Under the pieces are notes generated by a model that searched no databases, was not told the DNA's origin, and was given only the letters and a program-made list of their open reading frames with translations. Made by a program: the position numbers and the translations under genes. Shown here piece after piece: positions 16,609 to 40,725 of a stretch of DNA of 64,000 nucleotides; position 1 is the first letter of the stretch; each line of letters opens with the position of its first letter. The DNA is from Jiangella mangrovi (GTDB lineage: Bacteria > Actinomycetota > Actinomycetes > Jiangellales > Jiangellaceae), in assembly GCF_014204975.1 (NCBI RefSeq), contig NZ_JACHMM010000001.1:930001-994000 (forward strand). Reading direction: 5' to 3'.

Positions 16609-18018
16609 CTACCCGCCCAGCGGCTGGTAGTCGACGTCGAGCAGCCGGCAGACCTGCTCGAGCTCGGCCACGTAGTCGCCCGGGACGGCGTGGATGTGGT
16701 TGGCGCCGAACCGCGACAGGAACTCGTCGGCCGGCACGTCCATGCGGGTGAACGCGTGCGGCCACTCGAACGTCGACTGCCGCGCCAGCTGCTCGTTGAC
16801 CTCGTCGCCGTAGTCCTCGAACGCGCCGCGCACGACCTGCATGCGGTAGCGGCCGCTGTGCCGCGTGAGCCGGGTCAGCGTCATGTCGCCCGGCGCCGCG
16901 ACGTGGTGCACCGACGCGCCGCCGGCCGGGAAGAAGAACACCTCCGGGTACAGGTGCACCCGGCGCAGGTTCTCGGCCGGGTCGTCACTGCGGGCCGCGT
17001 ACCAGGTAGCGTGCTGGCCGGAGTTGCACAGGTCCCAGATGTCGCGGTCGGCGTGGTAGTGCCGCACGTCGGCGAAGAGCACCGGGTCGCCCGAGATCAG
17101 CTTGAGGATCTGCATGGTCAGCGCGGCGTCCATGTCCGACTCCGTCGCGGTGACGTGGGTCGGCTTCGGGCCCTCCCAGTCGTACGGGTCGTTGAGGAAC
17201 GCCTCGGTGATGTCCATGGTGGTGAAGTGCGTGGTCAGCTCCGGCTGGCCCTTGATGCCGGAGAAGTCGAGGTTCCACTCGTCGATCAGCTCGCGCACCG
17301 CGTGATACGACCGGATCTGCCGCTCCAGCAGCTCAGGGGTGAGCTGCTTGCCGTCGTAGTGGACGGTGGCGTGCGTCTCGAGCCACTCGCGGCCCTCCTT
17401 GGCCCGGGCCGGCGACACCAGCTCGGAGCGGCGGACGATCTCCCACTGGTCGATCTCCTCGACGTCGACGCCGAACGTCGACAGCCACTGGTCGCTGTTG
17501 GCGACGGCGGTGTACATGCCCATGGGCCGGCCGCCGAACCGGCCGAACGTGCTGCCGCGCAGCCCGCCAACCGCCTGCGCCGCGCGGACGTGCACGAGCA
17601 GCCGCCCCAGCGTCTCGGGGTCGGCGACGTCGCCCCACACCCGCCCGTGCACGCGGCCGATCTGGTCCAGCGCGCCGCCCGCGGCCAGCATGCCGACCAT
17701 GCCCGGCTGGACGGGGTCGATGTTCGACAGCAGCACCAGCGGCCCCGGCGTCGCGTCGGCCGCGAGCATCGAGAAGTGCGGGAACGCCCAGACGGAGTAG
17801 TTGAAGATCGTGACGTCGGGCCGTGCCTCGGCGACCTGCCGGGCCAGGCTGGAGGCCAGCGCGTTCGTCCACACCGGCTCCGCCGCCCGCACCACCTCGT
17901 GCCCGGCGCCCTCCAGCGCCGCGGCGATCGCGTCCTCCGACGAGCGGGCCCAGGCCTCGATGTCGCGGTGCACGAAGTCGCGCCCGTCGGAGATGGTCAG
18001 CAGGCCGATCCGTGCCAC
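16609..18018 (-). CDS. L-fucose/L-arabinose (D-arabinose-type) isomerase family protein
   Basis: 469 aa. An aldose-ketose isomerase fold of the fucose/arabinose isomerase family, shorter than E. coli FucI (~590 aa). Candidate metal ligands are the Glu in VTATESDMDAAL, the Asp in PVLFADVRHYH and the His in NSGQH. L-fucose isomerase also acts on D-arabinose, which fits the GH172 and importer genes in the same locus. Divergent from lacI, behind a promoter and operator matching those of the importer operon. The exact sugar is not proven. Confidence 0.8.
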   Translation of the reverse strand: MARIGLLTISDGRDFVHRDIEAWARSSEDAIAAALEGAGHEVVRAAEPVWTNALASSLARQVAEARPDVTIFNYSVWAFPHFSMLAADATPGPLVLLSNIDPVQPGMVGMLAAGGALDQIGRVHGRVWGDVADPETLGRLLVHVRAAQAVGGLRGSTFGRFGGRPMGMYTAVANSDQWLSTFGVDVEEIDQWEIVRRSELVSPARAKEGREWLETHATVHYDGKQLTPELLERQIRSYHAVRELIDEWNLDFSGIKGQPELTTHFTTMDITEAFLNDPYDWEGPKPTHVTATESDMDAALTMQILKLISGDPVLFADVRHYHADRDIWDLCNSGQHATWYAARSDDPAENLRRVHLYPEVFFFPAGGASVHHVAAPGDMTLTRLTRHSGRYRMQVVRGAFEDYGDEVNEQLARQSTFEWPHAFTRMDVPADEFLSRFGANHIHAVPGDYVAELEQVCRLLDVDYQPLGG

Positions 18019-18049
18019 GGTGCACTCCTCGCGTCGGCGGGAACAGTCA

Positions 18050-18096
18050 GAAATCGATTGCCCGCCACGCTAGGATGACCGCGGAGCGGATGTCAA
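18050..18096 (-). promoter_or_regulatory. Promoter and LacI operator of the isomerase gene
   Basis: On the minus strand TTGACA (18091-18096) and TAGCGT (18067-18072) are separated by 18 bp. Just downstream, GCAATCGATTTC (complement of 18050-18061) matches 10 of 12 bases of the perfect palindrome GAAATCGATTTC found before the ABC operon. A LacI-type site placed at the transcription start implies repression. Confidence 0.75.
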
Positions 18097-18130
18097 CGGG
18101 GGCAGCGCCGGATCGCGGAACGGGGGCTCG

Positions 18131-19150
18131 GTGGTCACCATCTACGACGTCGCACGCCACGCGGGCGTGTCGGCCGCCACCGTGTCGCGCGTGCTCAACG
18201 GCCACGTCAAGGTCGACCCCGTGCTGGCCGGGCGGGTCACCGACGCCGTCGCCCAGCTCGGCTACCGCCGCAACGCCGTCGCCCGCAACCTGCGCACCAG
18301 CCAGACCACGCTGTGGGCGGTCATCGTCTCCGACGTCCAGAACCCGTTCTTCACGTCCATGGTGCGCGGCATCGAGGACGTCGCGCTCTCCGCCGGGTAC
18401 TCCGTCGTGCTCTGCAACAGCGACGAGAACCCCGAGAAGGAGTCGAACTACATCGCGGCGGCGCTGGCCGAGCGCATGGCCGGCGTGGTCATCTCGCCGT
18501 CGTCCCACCGTGTCGACGACGTCGAGCTCCTGCTCCAGGCCGGCTGCCCGGTGGTGGTCATCGACCGCGAGCTGGCCGGCATCAGCACCGACACCGTCCT
18601 CGTCGACAACGAGCACGGCGCTCAGATCGGCACCACGCACCTCGCCGACCAGGGCTTCCGCCGCATCGCCTGCATCGCCGGGCCGCGCTGGCTCAGCACC
18701 GCCACCCAGCGCCTCGACGGCTACGGCAAGGCGCTGCGCGCGGCCGGGCTGCCGGTCGACCCCGCGCTGGTGCGGCACGCTGACTTCCGCGAGCGCGGCG
18801 GCTACGAGGCCATGGCGTCGCTGCTCGACGACAACGCCGCGGCACCGCCCGACGCCGTCTTCGCCGCCAACAACCTCATGACCATCGGCGCCATGGAGTG
18901 CCTGGTCGAGCGCGGCATCGCGGTGCCGTCCGACGTCGCCATCGTCGGTTTCGACGCCATCCCGTGGGCCGACCTCATCCGGCCGACGCTGACCACCGTC
19001 GCGCAGCCCACCTACGAGGTCGGCCGACGGGCGGCGCAACTGCTGGTGAAACGGCTGGCCGGGCCCGCCGAGGAGCCCACCCACGTGGTGCTGCCGACCG
19101 CGCTGCAGATCCGGGCCAGCTCGATCCGCGTCACCGCCCGACCGCGCTGA
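18131..19150 (+). CDS. LacI-family transcriptional regulator of the sugar locus
   Basis: 339 aa from GTG 18131. N-terminal LacI helix-turn-helix VTIYDVARHAGVSAATVSRV with the hinge VARNLRTSQT (residues ~54-63), then a periplasmic-binding-protein-like sensor domain (VSDVQNPFFTSMVRGIED, GVVISPSSH, VDNEHGAQIGTTHLADQGF, DVAIVGFDAIPWADLIRP; short excerpts). It sits between the isomerase and the ABC operon, both preceded by the same GAAATCGATTTC-type site. Inducer is probably the transported sugar. Confidence 0.92.
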   Translation: MVTIYDVARHAGVSAATVSRVLNGHVKVDPVLAGRVTDAVAQLGYRRNAVARNLRTSQTTLWAVIVSDVQNPFFTSMVRGIEDVALSAGYSVVLCNSDENPEKESNYIAAALAERMAGVVISPSSHRVDDVELLLQAGCPVVVIDRELAGISTDTVLVDNEHGAQIGTTHLADQGFRRIACIAGPRWLSTATQRLDGYGKALRAAGLPVDPALVRHADFRERGGYEAMASLLDDNAAAPPDAVFAANNLMTIGAMECLVERGIAVPSDVAIVGFDAIPWADLIRPTLTTVAQPTYEVGRRAAQLLVKRLAGPAEEPTHVVLPTALQIRASSIRVTARPR

Positions 19151-19158
19151 CTCACCCC

Positions 19159-19205
19159 TTGACAGTCGGTGTAGCCCGCGCCTAGCGTCGTTCGAAATCG
19201 ATTTC
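19159..19205 (+). promoter_or_regulatory. Promoter and perfect-palindrome LacI operator of the ABC/GH172 operon
   Basis: TTGACA (19159-19164), an 18-bp spacer and TAGCGT (19183-19188) form a sigma-70-like promoter. GAAATCGATTTC (19194-19205), a perfect 12-nt palindrome, starts 6 bp after the -10 box, at the expected transcription start. The same boxes and spacing recur at the isomerase gene, which supports both assignments. Confidence 0.82.
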
Positions 19206-19246
19206 TCAGCCGACATCGGGGTCGGCGAGAGAGACGGAGACGCGAG

Positions 19247-20569
19247 ATGGCCGGTTCCCGCCCCCACGTGCTCACCCGCCGTCAGTTCACCACCAGGATG
19301 GTCGCCGCCGGCGCGTCCGCCGGCATCCTCGGACCGCTGCTCTCCTCGTGCGGAGGTGGCGACGACAGCAGCAGTGACGGCGGCGGGCCGATCCAGTTCT
19401 GGAAGTTCGTCGCCGAGGGCGACGACCCGCAGATCGAGGCGGCGATCGAGCGCTGGAACGCCGAGAACGCCGACATGCAGGTGGAGTTCCAGACCTTCCC
19501 GTTCGCCGACTACACCGGCACCAAGCTGACCACCGCGTTCGCCGCCGGCAACGGCCCGGACGTGTTCTGGATCAGTCCCGGCGCGTTCCTCAACTACGTC
19601 AACACCGGGGTGTCCGCGCCGGTCGACGACCTCGTCGACAAGGGCGGGTACAACCCGGCGTCCGTTGCCGCCGTCACCGTCGACGGGGCGATGCAGGCGC
19701 TGCCGTTCGAGATCGAGCCGGTGGCTCTGTTCTACCGCGAGGACCACCTGGCCGACGCCGGCCTCGAGCCGCCCACCACCTGGGACGGGCTGTTCTCCGC
19801 CGCCCAGGAGCTCACCTCGGGAGATCGCAAGGGCATCATCATCGAGGTCGCGCCCGGCCCGTACCAGAACTTCACCTGGTACCCGTTCCTCTGGAGCGCC
19901 GGCGGCGAGGTCGTCAACGAGGACTCCACCGAGTCCGCGCTGCGCTCCCCCGAGGCGGCCGCGGCGTTCGACCTCTGGGGGCGCCTCGTCACCGAGGGCT
20001 ACGCGCCCAACGACAACGCGACGTCCACCACCGACATCGGCACTCTCGGCCGGGGCGAGACGTCCATGCAGGTCTGCGGGTTCTGGGCCATCGCCGCACT
20101 GCAGGAGGAGTTCGCCGACCAGCCGATCAACGTCATCCCCATCCCCGCGCCCGACGGCGGCAGCCCCGTCTCGGTCTACGGCGGCTGGACGCAGATGCTC
20201 AACGCCGAGAGCCCGCGCCTGGACGCGGCGAAGGCGTTCACGAAGTGGCTCTGGGTCGACGACGACGTGTTCGCCGAGGAGTGGGCCTGCCGGGCCGGCT
20301 CGAAGTTCTCCCCGCGCGAGGCGGTCAACGAGGCCTGCGCCGACGTGTTCGGCGCCGCCACGCACAGCGTGTTCGCCGACCAGATCCTGCCCATCGCCCG
20401 GGCCGAGCCGCGCTACCCCGACCAGGTGGTCAAGGCCGTCGGCGACGGCCTGCAGGCGGCGATGTTCCGTGGCGCGAGCGGCGAGGAGGCGGCGGCGCTG
20501 GCGGCCGACGCCATCGACACGTTCCTGTCCTCCTACCAGGGGGCGCCGCTCAACCCCGAGACCACGTGA
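19247..20569 (+). CDS. ABC transporter sugar-binding lipoprotein (CUT1 type)
   Basis: 440 aa. The signal region has a twin-arginine motif (RRQF at 11-14), a hydrophobic stretch and a lipobox LLSSC with Cys35 as the lipidation site, so export may be by Tat. The mature part is a family-1 solute-binding protein (AGNGPDVFWISPGAFL, ALPFEIEPVALFYREDHL, PPTTWDGLFSAAQEL). First gene of the importer operon; its TGA overlaps the first permease GTG. Likely binds an oligosaccharide. Confidence 0.92.
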   Translation: MAGSRPHVLTRRQFTTRMVAAGASAGILGPLLSSCGGGDDSSSDGGGPIQFWKFVAEGDDPQIEAAIERWNAENADMQVEFQTFPFADYTGTKLTTAFAAGNGPDVFWISPGAFLNYVNTGVSAPVDDLVDKGGYNPASVAAVTVDGAMQALPFEIEPVALFYREDHLADAGLEPPTTWDGLFSAAQELTSGDRKGIIIEVAPGPYQNFTWYPFLWSAGGEVVNEDSTESALRSPEAAAAFDLWGRLVTEGYAPNDNATSTTDIGTLGRGETSMQVCGFWAIAALQEEFADQPINVIPIPAPDGGSPVSVYGGWTQMLNAESPRLDAAKAFTKWLWVDDDVFAEEWACRAGSKFSPREAVNEACADVFGAATHSVFADQILPIARAEPRYPDQVVKAVGDGLQAAMFRGASGEEAAALAADAIDTFLSSYQGAPLNPETT

Positions 20570-21477
20570 GCAGCGCCGTCGGCACCGCGCCGCCTCGGTG
20601 GTGGCGGACCCGGCGCGGCGAGCAGCGACTGGTCGGGTACGCGTTCCTACTGCCGGACCTGCTGGGCCTGGCGGTGTTCGTGGCGCTGCCGATCCTGGGC
20701 GCGTTCTACATCTCGTTCCACGACTGGACCGGCATCGGGGCACGCGAGTGGACCGGCACCGCCAACTACGAGACCCTGCTGCACGACCAGGCGTTCCGCG
20801 ACTCGCTGAAGATCACCGCCGTCTACACCGTCACGTTCGTGCCGCTGCTGTTCGTGCTGTCGCTGGCGCTGGCCCTGCTGGTCAACCGCGGGCTGGCGCT
20901 GAGCGGGTTCTTCCGGTCGGCCTACTTCGCGCCGTTCATGGTGTCGCTGGTGGTCGCGTCGGTCGTCTGGGGCTTCATGCTGCAGGACCCCGGCGGCGTG
21001 CTGAACGCGGTCCTCGGGCTGTTCGGCATCGACCCGCAGCCCTGGCTCGGCTCGACCCGGCTGGCGATGGTGTCGGTGATCCTGGTGACGCTCTGGCAGG
21101 GCGTCGGCTACAGCATGATCATCTTCCTGACCGGGCTGCAGGACATCCCGAAGGTCTACTACGAGGCGGCGGTGGTCGACGGCGCCGGCGCGTGGCGGCG
21201 CTTCCGCGGCATCACGCTGCCGCTGCTGCGGCCCACCAGCGTGTTCGTCCTGCTCATCACGTTCATCAGCGCGCTGCAACTGTTCGACCCGATCTACGTG
21301 CTGACACAGGGCGGGCCCGCGGGCGCCACCCGGACCACCGTCGTCTACATCTACGAGACCGCGTTCCAGTTCCTGCAGCTGGGCTACGCGTCGGCGCTGT
21401 CGGTGGCGCTGTTCGTGATCATCCTGGTCTTCTCCCTCCTCCAGCTACGGATCTTCCGCCATGAGTCCTACGACTGA
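20566..21477 (+). CDS. ABC sugar permease 1 (MalF/UgpA-like)
   Basis: 303 aa from GTG 20566, overlapping the binding-protein stop by 4 nt. Six membrane segments and a canonical EAA loop (EAAVVDGAGAWRRFRGITLP) that contacts the ATPase. YFAPFMVSLVVASVVWGFM and FDPIYVLTQGGP are CUT1 permease landmarks. Its last 17 nt overlap the next permease. No ATPase is encoded nearby, so a shared MsiK-type ATPase is expected. Confidence 0.92.
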   Translation: MSSAVGTAPPRWWRTRRGEQRLVGYAFLLPDLLGLAVFVALPILGAFYISFHDWTGIGAREWTGTANYETLLHDQAFRDSLKITAVYTVTFVPLLFVLSLALALLVNRGLALSGFFRSAYFAPFMVSLVVASVVWGFMLQDPGGVLNAVLGLFGIDPQPWLGSTRLAMVSVILVTLWQGVGYSMIIFLTGLQDIPKVYYEAAVVDGAGAWRRFRGITLPLLRPTSVFVLLITFISALQLFDPIYVLTQGGPAGATRTTVVYIYETAFQFLQLGYASALSVALFVIILVFSLLQLRIFRHESYD

Positions 21478-22354
21478 GGCCGCGCCGGCCCGCGAGGCGG
21501 CCGCCCGCCCGCCGATCCCCCGCCGTCGGCGCCGGCACCGGCTGGCCGACCGGCTGGTGCTGTACACGCTGGCGATCCTGGCGTTCGTCGTGCTGGCCGG
21601 GCCGCTGCTGTGGATGCTGTCCAGCTCGCTCAAGGACGGCTCCGAGGTGCTGGCCAACCCGCCGACCGTGGTGCCGCGCGAGCTGCACTTCCAGAACTAC
21701 GTCGACGTGTTCGAACAGGTGCCGTTCGCGCGGTACATGCTGAACTCGCTGTTCGTGGCGACGGTGGTGACGGCGATATCGCTGCTGTTCCACTCGATGG
21801 CGGCCTACTCGCTGGCCCGGCTGCGCTTCCCCGGCCGCAACGCGATCTTCCTGGCGATCCTGTCGACGCTGATGGTGCCGTTCACTGTCATCGTGATCCC
21901 GCTGTTCATCATCGTCGACTGGCTCGGCTGGGTGGACACCTACCAGGGCCTGATCATCCCGATGATCCCGCACGCGTTCGGGATCTTCCTGCTGCGCCAG
22001 TTCTACCTGTCGCTGCCGCGGGAGCTCGAGGAGGCGGCGATCGTCGACGGCGCCGGGCTGGTCAAGGTGTACTGGCACATCGTGCTGCCGTTGTCGCGGC
22101 CGATCCTCGCGGCGCTGGGCATCTTCTTCTTCCTGGCCAACTGGAACAACTTCCTGTGGCCGCTGATCGTCACACAGTCGCAGGAGCTGTGGGTCGTGCA
22201 GCTGGGCATGCAGCAGTTCACCGGCCAGCACGGCACGCAGTACCACCTGATCATGGCCGCCTCGACGCTGGCGGCGCTGCCGACGCTGATCCTGTTCTTC
22301 GTCCTCCAGCGCCGGCTCGTCGAGGGCATCAAACTGACCGGCCTCAAGGGCTGA
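21461..22354 (+). CDS. ABC sugar permease 2 (MalG/UgpE-like)
   Basis: 297 aa. An Arg-rich N-terminus is followed by six membrane segments. The EAA loop reads EEAAIVDGAGLVKVYWHIVL and NWNNFLWPLIVTQS is typical of MalG-type subunits. Forms the channel together with permease 1. The overlapping start argues for tight translational coupling of the two subunits. Confidence 0.92.
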   Translation: MSPTTEAAPAREAAARPPIPRRRRRHRLADRLVLYTLAILAFVVLAGPLLWMLSSSLKDGSEVLANPPTVVPRELHFQNYVDVFEQVPFARYMLNSLFVATVVTAISLLFHSMAAYSLARLRFPGRNAIFLAILSTLMVPFTVIVIPLFIIVDWLGWVDTYQGLIIPMIPHAFGIFLLRQFYLSLPRELEEAAIVDGAGLVKVYWHIVLPLSRPILAALGIFFFLANWNNFLWPLIVTQSQELWVVQLGMQQFTGQHGTQYHLIMAASTLAALPTLILFFVLQRRLVEGIKLTGLKG

Positions 22355-22374
22355 CCTCTCGAGAAGGAGCGCCG

Positions 22375-23430
22375 ATGACCGGACCCCTGTCGAACCTGCC
22401 GCGGCTCACCGGCACCCGCAGCGCCCGCGCGTCCAGCTGGGACCGGACGGGCGGCAACGACGACCGTCTGACCATCGCGCCGGGTGAGACGGCGCTGCTG
22501 GCGGCCGTCGACGAGCCGGGCGTCGTCCGGCACATCTGGGTGACCATCGCCTGCGAGGACGAGCACTACCTGCGCAAGATCGTGCTGCGGATGTACTGGG
22601 ACGGCGCCGACACCCCGTGCGTCGAGGCGCCGGTGGGCGACTACTTCGGGCTCGGGCACGCGCAGCACCGCAACTTCGTGTCGCTGCCGCTGCAGATGAG
22701 CCCGCAGGACGGCAAGGCGTTCAACTGCTGGTTCCCGATGCCGTTCGACTCCGCCCGGCTCGAGGTGGCGAACGAGTGCGGCACCGACGTGATCTTCTAC
22801 TACTACGTCGACTACGAGCTCACCGGCGAGCCCGACACGCGGGCCGGCCGGTTCCACACGCAGTGGCGGCGGCAGAACCCGACCGACGGACTGGCCGACG
22901 AGTCCGGGCTGACCAACAGCGAGTTCCAGTTCGGCGGCACCAACACCGACGGCGCCGGCAACTACGTGCTGCTGGACGCCGCGGGCGAGGGCCACTACGT
23001 CGGCTGCCACGTCGACATCGAGAACCTGCGCCAGGTCGGGCCCGCCCAGTTCAACTGGTACGGCGAGGGTGACGACATGATCTTCGTCGACGGCGAGCCG
23101 TTCCCGCCGGCGCTGCACGGCACCGGGACCGAGGACTACTTCAACACCGCCTGGTGCCCGTCCGAGGAGTACAACGCGCCTTACCACGGCATCGTGCTGC
23201 CGGGCGGGCAGAACTGGTCCGGGAAGATCTCCCTCTACCGCTACCACGTCGAGGACCCGGTCCGGTTCCAGCGGTCGATCAGGGTGACCATCGAGCACGG
23301 GCACGACAACCACCGCTCCGACGACTGGTCCAGCACGGCGTACTGGTACCAGACCGAGCCGCACGCCCCGTTCCCGCCGCTGCCGGCCGTCGGCGACCGC
23401 CTGCCGCGGCCGGGCGAGCGGCTGTTCTGA
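22375..23430 (+). CDS. DUF2961 / glycoside hydrolase family 172 protein
   Basis: 351 aa, no signal peptide, so probably cytosolic. DUF2961 hallmarks are VRHIWVTI, VEAPVGDYFGLG, MPFDSARLEVANE, TGTEDYFNTAWCP and YRYHVEDPVRFQ. Acidic residues in the GDYFG and GTEDYF segments are candidate catalytic groups. Family members include difructose dianhydride enzymes and exo-alpha-D-arabinofuranosidases. GAAGGAG lies before ATG 22375, and the gene follows the importer in the LacI operon. It may hydrolyse an imported oligosaccharide, with products going to the divergent isomerase. Confidence 0.87.
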   Translation: MTGPLSNLPRLTGTRSARASSWDRTGGNDDRLTIAPGETALLAAVDEPGVVRHIWVTIACEDEHYLRKIVLRMYWDGADTPCVEAPVGDYFGLGHAQHRNFVSLPLQMSPQDGKAFNCWFPMPFDSARLEVANECGTDVIFYYYVDYELTGEPDTRAGRFHTQWRRQNPTDGLADESGLTNSEFQFGGTNTDGAGNYVLLDAAGEGHYVGCHVDIENLRQVGPAQFNWYGEGDDMIFVDGEPFPPALHGTGTEDYFNTAWCPSEEYNAPYHGIVLPGGQNWSGKISLYRYHVEDPVRFQRSIRVTIEHGHDNHRSDDWSSTAYWYQTEPHAPFPPLPAVGDRLPRPGERLF

Positions 23431-23606
23431 GGAGTTCGTGTCGAGCACGAAGGCGCGCGGACCGGTGTGCAGAACGGCCCCGCCGATGAACCGGTCGCCG
23501 GTGATGGGAGCCTCGGTGACGAGGAGCTCCGGCCCATCTCTGCTCGGAGGTGCGCCACGACCAGCGTGTCGAAGGTGCGGCCCAGCATGTCCGCGTCCTC
23601 TATTAG

Positions 23607-23714
23607 CGCAAGGCAGCCGCGCTGGCCCGCTTCGCCGCCGCCGAGGGCATCCCGCTCTCGCAGACGGTCGCCGTCGGCGACGGCACCACGACCCCGTCAC
23701 CGCCCGTCCGCTGA
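23607..23714 (+). pseudogene. SerB-like HAD phosphatase fragment
   Basis: A 35-codon frame reads RKAAALARFAAAEGIPLSQT and continues VAVGDG before diverging. This matches the segment before and including the GDGAND motif of phosphoserine phosphatase SerB, but the Asn-Asp is lost and a stop follows. There is no start codon and no other HAD motif. It lies on the opposite strand inside the DUF4143 remnant. Confidence 0.5.
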
Positions 23715-23824
23715 GGTTCGCTGGGTGACCGTGCGCTGGGTTTGCCGAGTCACGCCGGCCGCTGGCGGTTCCGCCGTGGGTTCGGCGACCGGTCCCGCGG
23801 ACATCCAGCCCCGCCGACCACTTT

Positions 23825-23880
23825 CCATGATCATCAATGATCCAACCACCTATAGGGGGTCGAATCATTGATGATCATGG
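23825..23880. repeat. TGATCAT-core palindrome 1
   Basis: Perfect 17-nt arms CCATGATCATCAATGAT (23825-23841) and its complement (23864-23880) enclose a 22-nt loop containing CCTATAGGGGG. The right arm shares TGATCATGG with the next palindrome, so only one of the two hairpins can form at a time. Confidence 0.85.
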
Positions 23881-23928
23881 AGAAGAGCGACCAAAACCGG
23901 CCTCGGAAGCCGCCCTTCTCCATGATCA
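23872..23928. repeat. TGATCAT-core palindrome 2
   Basis: Perfect 14-nt arms TGATCATGGAGAAG (23872-23885) and CTTCTCCATGATCA (23915-23928) flank a 29-nt loop. Arms, loop length and parts of the loop (AGCG..., GGAAGCCGC) match the element at 40665-40725, so these are two members of one repeat family. Confidence 0.85.
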
Positions 23929-24383
23929 ACAGCGGGCGGCCAGCGCAACCCAACACCAGCGGGTCTGAGGGCCGGGCCATCCGGGGAGGGGGCCCTGGTG
24001 CTGTTGAAGGCGAGGGCGCGGCGGCGCGGTTCCGCGACATCCGGTCGCAGGGCGGCGAGCGCGAGCGATGGATCGACGACGTATCGCTTCGAGCCACGGA
24101 CCAGACGCTTCAACCGCTTCCGATGCGAGCAGATCACCCCTGATCTCACCGACGGTGAGTCCGTGCATCGGCACCCGCAGAATGCGACCGGTGCCGGGCC
24201 GGCTGGGCATGTCGAGGTCGCCCCGCACCGAACCGGTGAGGATGAAGCGGCCAGGGCTCGGGGTCCGCGCCGGCGACCGCGCCCTGGGCCGGCTGATCGA
24301 GGAGGATGCTGCTTCGAGCAAAGCGCCGCACCCTCGAATGGGCAGATTACGCAGGCGTCAGTAGCAGGATGCCACACCATCCA

Positions 24384-25136
24384 CTAGCCAAATTCCGCAG
24401 GTGAGACCGCAACGACCGCCTCGATGCGGACGTCGAAGCCGGCGCCGTCGTCGTCGCCGCCGAGCTCGCGCAGCTCGACGCAGATGCCGGTCTCGACGTC
24501 GAGGGCCACGGCGAACGCGTCGGCGAAGGCGCGGTCCTCGGGATCGGGCCCGCCCTCGGCCCGCAGCAGCTCGGCCGAGACCTCGCCGATCAGCAGGGCG
24601 CAGCAGGTGCAGCGCGGGTCGTAGGCCGCGGTGGGCCGGACGGTCGCCTCGAGGGTGTCGCGGCCCTCGCGGACCACCTGCTCGACCGACAGCACGTCGA
24701 CGCCGTCGGACAGCTCCACGGGGTCGAGCATGGCGACCCACAGGTAGTTCTCGTACATGGGGTCGTCGTAGGCGACGGTGACACCGGACGGCCGCCGCGC
24801 GACCAGACCGTCGGGGCGGCGCTCCGGCGCGGGCGCGGCGGGATCGAGCGGGACGGTGACCACCGACGGCTCGACGGGCGCGCCGCCGGAACCGTCGCCG
24901 GAACCGTCGTCGGAGCTCGACACGAGGACGAGGCCTCGGTCGGCCGGCGTCTCGTCGACCAGGTGCTCGGTGCCGTCGTGGTCGACGACGCGCATGCGGC
25001 CGGGCCGGTCGATCCAGGCACGCACTTCCTCGTCGGCCGTGATCGCGTCGCCGACCAGGCGGCGGGTCAGCTCCACCGACCGCCAGCGCCAGGGCGACGA
25101 GCGCGCGAGCGCCCGGAAGGTCTCCTCGTCCACCAT
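24384..25136 (-). CDS. Hypothetical actinobacterial protein
   Basis: 250 aa, acidic, no signal peptide or membrane segment. I do not recognise a named family. It has an N-terminal helical part (FRALARSSPWRWRSVELTRR), a Ser/Gly/Asp-rich linker near residues 73-90, and a globular part with a cysteine cluster CTCC at 176-179 in a PRCTCCALLIGEVSAELL context. Good coding character throughout. Start at ATG 25136, 51 nt after the icd stop on the same strand, so it may be cotranscribed with icd. Confidence 0.72.
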   Translation of the reverse strand: MVDEETFRALARSSPWRWRSVELTRRLVGDAITADEEVRAWIDRPGRMRVVDHDGTEHLVDETPADRGLVLVSSSDDGSGDGSGGAPVEPSVVTVPLDPAAPAPERRPDGLVARRPSGVTVAYDDPMYENYLWVAMLDPVELSDGVDVLSVEQVVREGRDTLEATVRPTAAYDPRCTCCALLIGEVSAELLRAEGGPDPEDRAFADAFAVALDVETGICVELRELGGDDDGAGFDVRIEAVVAVSPAEFG

Positions 25137-40664: not shown

Positions 40665-40725
40665 GTTGATCATGGAGAAGAGCGGGTTTCCAGGGCCGTG
40701 GAAGCCGCACTTCTCCATGATCAAC
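40665..40725. repeat. TGATCAT-core palindrome 3
   Basis: Perfect 16-nt arms GTTGATCATGGAGAAG (40665-40680) and CTTCTCCATGATCAAC (40710-40725) with a 29-nt loop. Arms and parts of the loop match palindrome 2 (23872-23928). Located in the 295-nt gap 40604-40898 between converging genes, which holds no gene that I can support. Confidence 0.87.

Follow-up and report, generated by a model that had tools for sequence, protein, structure and literature searches.

Which sugar is served by a small LacI-controlled gene cluster of Jiangella mangrovi, in which a fucose-type isomerase, an ATP-binding cassette (ABC) importer and a glycoside hydrolase of family GH172 (DUF2961) are encoded side by side? The cluster lies in a stretch of 64,000 nucleotides, bases 930001-994000 of the 7.16-Mb single-contig genome, which was analysed as a whole and is called the window here. 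We read it, at a probability of roughly 0.8, as a locus for the uptake of D-arabino-oligosaccharides (alpha-D-arabinofuranose, alpha-D-Araf) released from foreign D-arabinan, a polysaccharide of mycobacterial and related cell walls. This reading is drawn from sequence through gene content, operator conservation, catalytic residues, the missing GH183 and adjacent kinase genes and purifying selection. Most likely the locus represents a known type of D-arabinan system in a variant form without the extracellular cutting step.

Sister loci and LacI regulon

The corresponding loci of sister Jiangella genomes point to D-arabinan. The GH172 stop codon of J. ureilytica (L021/L112) is followed immediately by a GH183 gene whose 366-aa product carries an apparent signal peptide; at least one GH183-family gene is also present at or near a GH172 locus in most of the other Jiangella genomes. 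The best solved match of the sister GH183 proteins is the endo-alpha-D-arabinanase 8hhv (334 bits), while the GH116 protein of the sister regulon scores 380 bits to the exo-beta-D-arabinofuranosidase 8ic6, as opposed to 105 bits for glucosidases. Most sister loci carry an FGGY kinase gene directly after the isomerase gene, the product being xylulokinase-like and below the equivalog cut-off. A preliminary description of this DNA had proposed import, intracellular release of D-arabinose by the GH172 protein and isomerisation to D-ribulose, and the GH183, FGGY kinase and GH116 operon of the sister loci lend strong support to such a predicted route.

The genes appear to be tied together by the 12-bp palindrome GAAATCGATTTC, found 53 bp upstream of the solute-binding-protein gene. 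A copy with one mismatch stands between isomerase and lacI. Apart from these two, a single site with at most one mismatch occurs in the whole 7.16-Mb genome, at 107331, where it is surrounded by unrelated genes and was set aside as chance; a reversed-pattern control returned none. A count of two sites with no more than two mismatches inside the window was matched by 4 of 100 shuffles, and because this count is weak by itself, the case for a regulon rests on conservation of the operator in sister genomes. Exact copies of GAAATCGATTTC were present, one to three per genome, in each of the 12 Jiangella genomes searched, and at up to two mismatches the motif precedes isomerase, lacI, solute-binding-protein and GH183 genes of the sister loci as well as a second ABC operon, with GH116 behind it in several genomes. 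The motif also occurs outside the family, in the genome of L032, at the isomerase/lacI junction and again just past lacI. The single LacI regulon of the preliminary description is thus borne out by the palindrome copies and their conservation; the LacI protein of the locus presumably binds the GAAATCGATTTC motif, which would give D-arabinan use a named operator.

The same description had placed the isomerase, LacI, importer and DUF2961/GH172 genes at 16609-23430, where all of them were found (Table 1), and it was also right that neither a kinase nor the ABC ATPase is encoded at the locus and, judged by inspection, that the GH172 protein has no signal peptide. The isomerase gene is divergent from the lacI, importer and GH172 genes and lies outside their operon. 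Inspection of the N-terminus of the solute-binding protein revealed a RRQF motif resembling twin-arginine translocation (Tat) signals followed by the lipobox LLSSC, and its distant matches are maltose- and other sugar-binding proteins. The GH172 gene occurs once in the window genome; a longer, mechanically derived open reading frame from 21610 was dismissed as a start-site artefact in favour of a start at 22375 (MTGPLSNLPRL...).

Table 1. Features of the locus, in window coordinates.
Feature	Position	Strand	Length	Remarks
Fucose-isomerase-family gene	16609..18018	-	469 aa	Predicted D-arabinose isomerase; Pfam Fucose_iso N1/N2/C above cut-off
Operator copy GAAATCGATTGC	18050..18061			One mismatch to palindrome; between isomerase and lacI
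LacI-family regulator	18131..19150	+	339 aa	
Operator copy GAAATCGATTTC	19194..19205		12 bp	Perfect palindrome
Sugar ABC solute-binding protein	19247..20569	+	440 aa	SBP_bac_8 and SBP_bac_1 above cut-off
ABC permease 1 (MalF/UgpA type)	about 20551..21477	+		
ABC permease 2 (MalG/UgpE type)	21461..22354	+		
GH172 (DUF2961) glycoside hydrolase	22375..23430	+	351 aa	Predicted exo-alpha-D-arabinofuranosidase
Spacer holding GH183 gene in J. ureilytica	23435..24413			No GH183 trace in window

GH172 protein and its specificity

The window GH172 protein scores 280 bits to PF11175 (cut-off 27), shows the double-domain DUF2961 arrangement and matches the structures 4kq7, 7v1v, 8ah3 and 8ic8. GH172 enzymes with characterised activity use either alpha-D-Araf or alpha-D-fructofuranose (alpha-D-Fruf) (PMC8605356, PMC10115798, PMC10509167). 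The protein might act on alpha-D-fructofuranosides such as inulobiose or difructose dianhydride I, as alphaFFase1 of Bifidobacterium dentium does, the neighbouring isomerase being incidental. Its score to alphaFFase1 is 271 bits and the two proteins group together loosely (86/81); alphaFFase1, too, is an intracellular enzyme without signal peptide beside an ABC importer (PMC8605356). All six catalytic and minus-one residues of alphaFFase1 (Y187, W267, E270, E291, D292 and W298) are kept in the window protein, whereas its plus-one subsite is missing, with a gap at E85 and Q at K147, as is its insertion at 65-92 (0 of 27 positions filled). In alphaFFase1, E85 and K147 are required for inulobiose and dispensable for p-nitrophenyl-alpha-D-Araf (PMC8605356). 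The exo-alpha-D-arabinofuranosidase DgGH172c (PMC10115798) likewise has no equivalents of E85 and K147. The B. dentium locus further differs in its GH32 partner and, within what PMC8605356 offers on it, in having no reported isomerase.

The preliminary description had proposed tree placement as a check, and our tree comprised 45 sequences, four of the references being taken from printed alignments and hence not full length. The window protein falls into a clade of seven sequences (support 98/95), every one from an isomerase or GH183 locus, while alphaFFase1 stands outside and pairs with L049 (100/99). Moreover, the isomerase is kept in all 12 Jiangella genomes searched and recurs with GH172, GH183 and GH116 genes, and D-fructose needs no such isomerase. 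We consider a fructofuranoside substrate very unlikely, so that only one half of the substrate title of the preliminary description is supported: its D-arabinose arm agrees with the D-arabinan genes of the sisters, its D-fructofuranose arm is disfavoured by the missing difructose-binding residues and insertion and by the isomerase.

Two types of GH172 cassette share one chromosomal place in Jiangella. The window type occurs in the window genome, G008 and G011 (J. ureilytica), and the other, found in several Jiangella genomes, encodes a GH172 protein matching the exo-alpha-D-arabinofuranosidase ExoMA1 (8ic8) with 489 bits. With two interchangeable cassettes at a single locus, it becomes possible to test what determines GH172 specificity.

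Two other kinds of GH172 protein were met on the way. Related genera of the same family (L049 in G015, L050 in G020) have an alphaFFase1-like GH172 with ABC importer and LacI, that of L049 sharing 57% identity with alphaFFase1 and possessing E85 and K147; neither adjoins an isomerase, and each is likely a difructose locus distinct from that of the window. Large DUF2961 proteins (about 800-1400 aa) stand at or near the isomerase in L124, L126, L127, L128, L136, L159, L169, L186 and L032. They keep E270, E291, D292 and W298, are missing W267 and Y187, form a deep separate GH172 branch (100/100) and are often accompanied by an RbsABC-type importer.

Isomerase subfamily

Orthologues of the isomerase at 93-96% identity are found in J. 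ureilytica, J. aurantiaca, J. anatolica, J. rhizosphaerae, J. endophytica, J. muralis and J. asiatica. Its profile matches are L-fucose isomerase FucI (1fui) and D-arabinose isomerase (3a9r) at E about 1e-24, with which it has the Pfam domains in common. Residues E293, D317 and H441, invariant in the alignment, align with E337, D361 and H528 of FucI, which we take to be the metal ligands. The window enzyme is, however, about 120 residues shorter than these classical isomerases and scores 81 bits where the FucI equivalog cut-off is 775, and it therefore represents a subfamily separate from FucI. From its context, the substrate is predicted to be D-arabinose.

This context was examined in 80 loci of other named genomes, the best 80 of 221 relatives, a sample that leans to close kin. 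Of these loci 71 span 12 kb or more, and among them FGGY kinase genes were present in 58, GH172 in 49, GH183 in 11 and GH116 in 6, and at least one of the three glycoside hydrolase families lay near the isomerase in 51. When all 80 loci are counted, an isomerase locus with GH172, GH183 or GH116 occurs in 14 of 19 taxonomic groups. Genomes of the window's family that have GH172 at all carry one to six copies, from which we estimate the chance of meeting one in a random 20-kb stretch at less than about 2%. In 30 of the 80 loci a permease of the RbsC type is encoded, in keeping with import of the free pentose. The analysis thus offers a likely substrate for a subfamily of short fucose isomerases that is uncharacterised and occurs in at least 80 actinobacterial loci; our literature search found nothing on Jiangella with arabinan, nor on a D-arabinose isomerase with D-arabinan.

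L-fucose isomerases as a family accept both L-fucose and D-arabinose, and the locus could accordingly be dedicated to another aldose handled by the same fold, for instance from an L-fucose- or D-altrose-containing glycoside. That the isomerase matches both kinds of enzyme (1fui and 3a9r) and, weakly, sulfoquinovose isomerase would fit this. Neither a fucosidase nor a fuculose aldolase occurs, however, among the annotated recurrent neighbour clusters of the isomerase loci, the sister regulon includes GH183 and GH116, and the described GH172 activities concern the two furanosides named above, which together render another aldose extremely improbable.

Nocardia genomes present a setting of their own (L160-L164, L166, L168, L170 and L172), with isomerase and FGGY kinase beside a GH32/GH43-like 327-aa protein and often also an ExoMA1-type GH172 and a zinc alcohol dehydrogenase. 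Nocardia make D-arabinan themselves, and these loci possibly recycle their own wall arabinan.

Reduction of the locus in J. mangrovi

Homology to J. ureilytica ends at base 23434, after the GH172 gene, and restarts at 24414; blastn and tblastn detected no GH183 remnant there at DNA or protein level, and the whole window genome contains no DUF4185 match or GH183 above cut-off. The regulon GH116 was not found in this genome either, its best matches being 38-43% identical and not behind an operator. At the place of the sister kinase, the isomerase gene of the window is followed by the next conserved gene with nothing encoded in between, a state shared by J. ureilytica, and a genome search for the sister-kinase ortholog gave only distant FGGY kinases. 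The FGGY kinases of the window genome comprise AraB (809 bits to TIGR01234) adjoining AraA, XylB, GlpK and unassigned others; because L-ribulokinases accept D-ribulose, AraB is a candidate D-ribulose kinase.

Since the sisters have a GH183, a GH116 operon and a kinase next to the isomerase that are missing here, the locus might be regarded as what is left of a D-arabinan locus in decay, without a function today. Its six remaining genes and both operators are nevertheless intact, and the ratios of nonsynonymous to synonymous substitution rates (dN/dS) against L021 and L024 are 0.08-0.36, the range also observed for isocitrate and malate dehydrogenase. The retained genes are under purifying selection and the reduced locus therefore appears to be maintained, which makes decay very unlikely.

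As to the origin of the glycan, emb-type arabinosyltransferase (PF04602) was not found in the window genome, while the control Corynebacterium glutamicum scores. This speaks against recycling of own-wall arabinan, and the D-arabinan presumably comes from other organisms such as mycobacteria, nocardiae and their relatives.

One weak DUF4185 hit of the window genome, at 4681913, was rejected for its better DUF5005 match. It belongs to a secreted-looking DUF5005 protein at about 4681287-4682432 (L197:4287-5432) with sub-threshold DUF4185 match; similar weak hits occur in sister genomes, and the protein may be distantly related to the GH183 fold.

Proposed pathway and related systems

We infer the substrate, the order of reactions, the inducer, the kinase and the ATPase as follows. 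The solute-binding protein and two permeases, together with an ATPase encoded elsewhere, would import a D-arabino-oligosaccharide, from whose non-reducing end the cytosolic GH172 protein would take off D-arabinose. The short fucose-isomerase-type enzyme would convert D-arabinose to D-ribulose, which a kinase encoded elsewhere would phosphorylate to D-ribulose 5-phosphate, bound for the pentose phosphate pathway, and LacI on GAAATCGATTTC would be released by a D-arabinose-type inducer. As neither a secreted GH183 nor a dedicated kinase is present, we propose that the organism depends on fragments made by others. Somewhat short of even odds, and thus tentatively, we picture J. mangrovi as a downstream-only D-arabinan user that lost its own endo-D-arabinanase and dedicated kinase, kept a functional LacI-controlled locus for import and cleavage, with a GH172 of a distinct clade and an isomerase of a short D-arabinose isomerase subfamily not yet described, and feeds on fragments that other bacteria release. 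Such an organism would exemplify possible dependence on other microbes for the opening of a mycobacterial-type cell-wall glycan.

Several points weigh against D-arabino-oligosaccharides as the substrate. The isomerase lies far below the FucI equivalog cut-off, the GH172 protein falls outside the ExoMA1 clade, and the grouping of its clade with alphaFFase1 and DgGH172c has the modest support given above and includes the long branch L099. Without GH183, the regulon GH116 and a dedicated kinase, use of polymeric D-arabinan by the window genome cannot be shown.

Known systems resemble the locus under the D-arabinan reading. The sister GH172, GH183 and GH116 proteins best match enzymes that Microbacterium arabinogalactanolyticum uses jointly to break down the D-arabinan in mycobacterial lipoarabinomannan and arabinogalactan; the locus of that organism encodes, in addition, an ABC importer as well as an isomerase and a kinase, both putative (PMC10509167). 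The window shares with it the non-secreted GH172, the SBP_bac_8-type importer and the putative isomerase, and sister Jiangella share GH183, GH116 and kinase too, whereas the window locus is without these three and its GH172 belongs to another clade than ExoMA1. When Dysgonomonas gadei was grown on D-arabinan, the most abundant carbohydrate-active protein was a predicted fucose isomerase (PMC10115798). Its polysaccharide utilisation locus PUL42 combines a fucose-isomerase-type protein with a GH172 of the kind of DgGH172c, which the window protein resembles, yet is Bacteroidota-type with secreted GH183 endo-enzymes, in contrast to the ABC importer, LacI control and missing GH183 of the window. 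In Mycosynbacter amalyticus a non-secreted GH172 is likewise proposed to finish imported D-arabino-oligosaccharides (PMC10115798), but a surface DUF4185 enzyme accompanies it, of which the window genome has none above cut-off. D-arabinan enzymes of this sort are wanted as tools for the study of the mycobacterial envelope.

Dispersed repeat in the window

The spacer in which GH183 is missing holds one copy of a paired palindromic intergenic element, in which TTCTCCATGATCA stands as two opposed copies 44 bp apart; the window has the element at 23824-23931 and 40667-40723. Exact copies number about 106 in the window genome, 108 in G008 and 30 in the draft G011, as compared with 0-1 outside the genus and none for a reversed control. 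With a fold z = -5.5, the element looks like a genus-specific dispersed repeat of the repetitive extragenic palindrome/bacterial interspersed mosaic element (REP/BIME) type.

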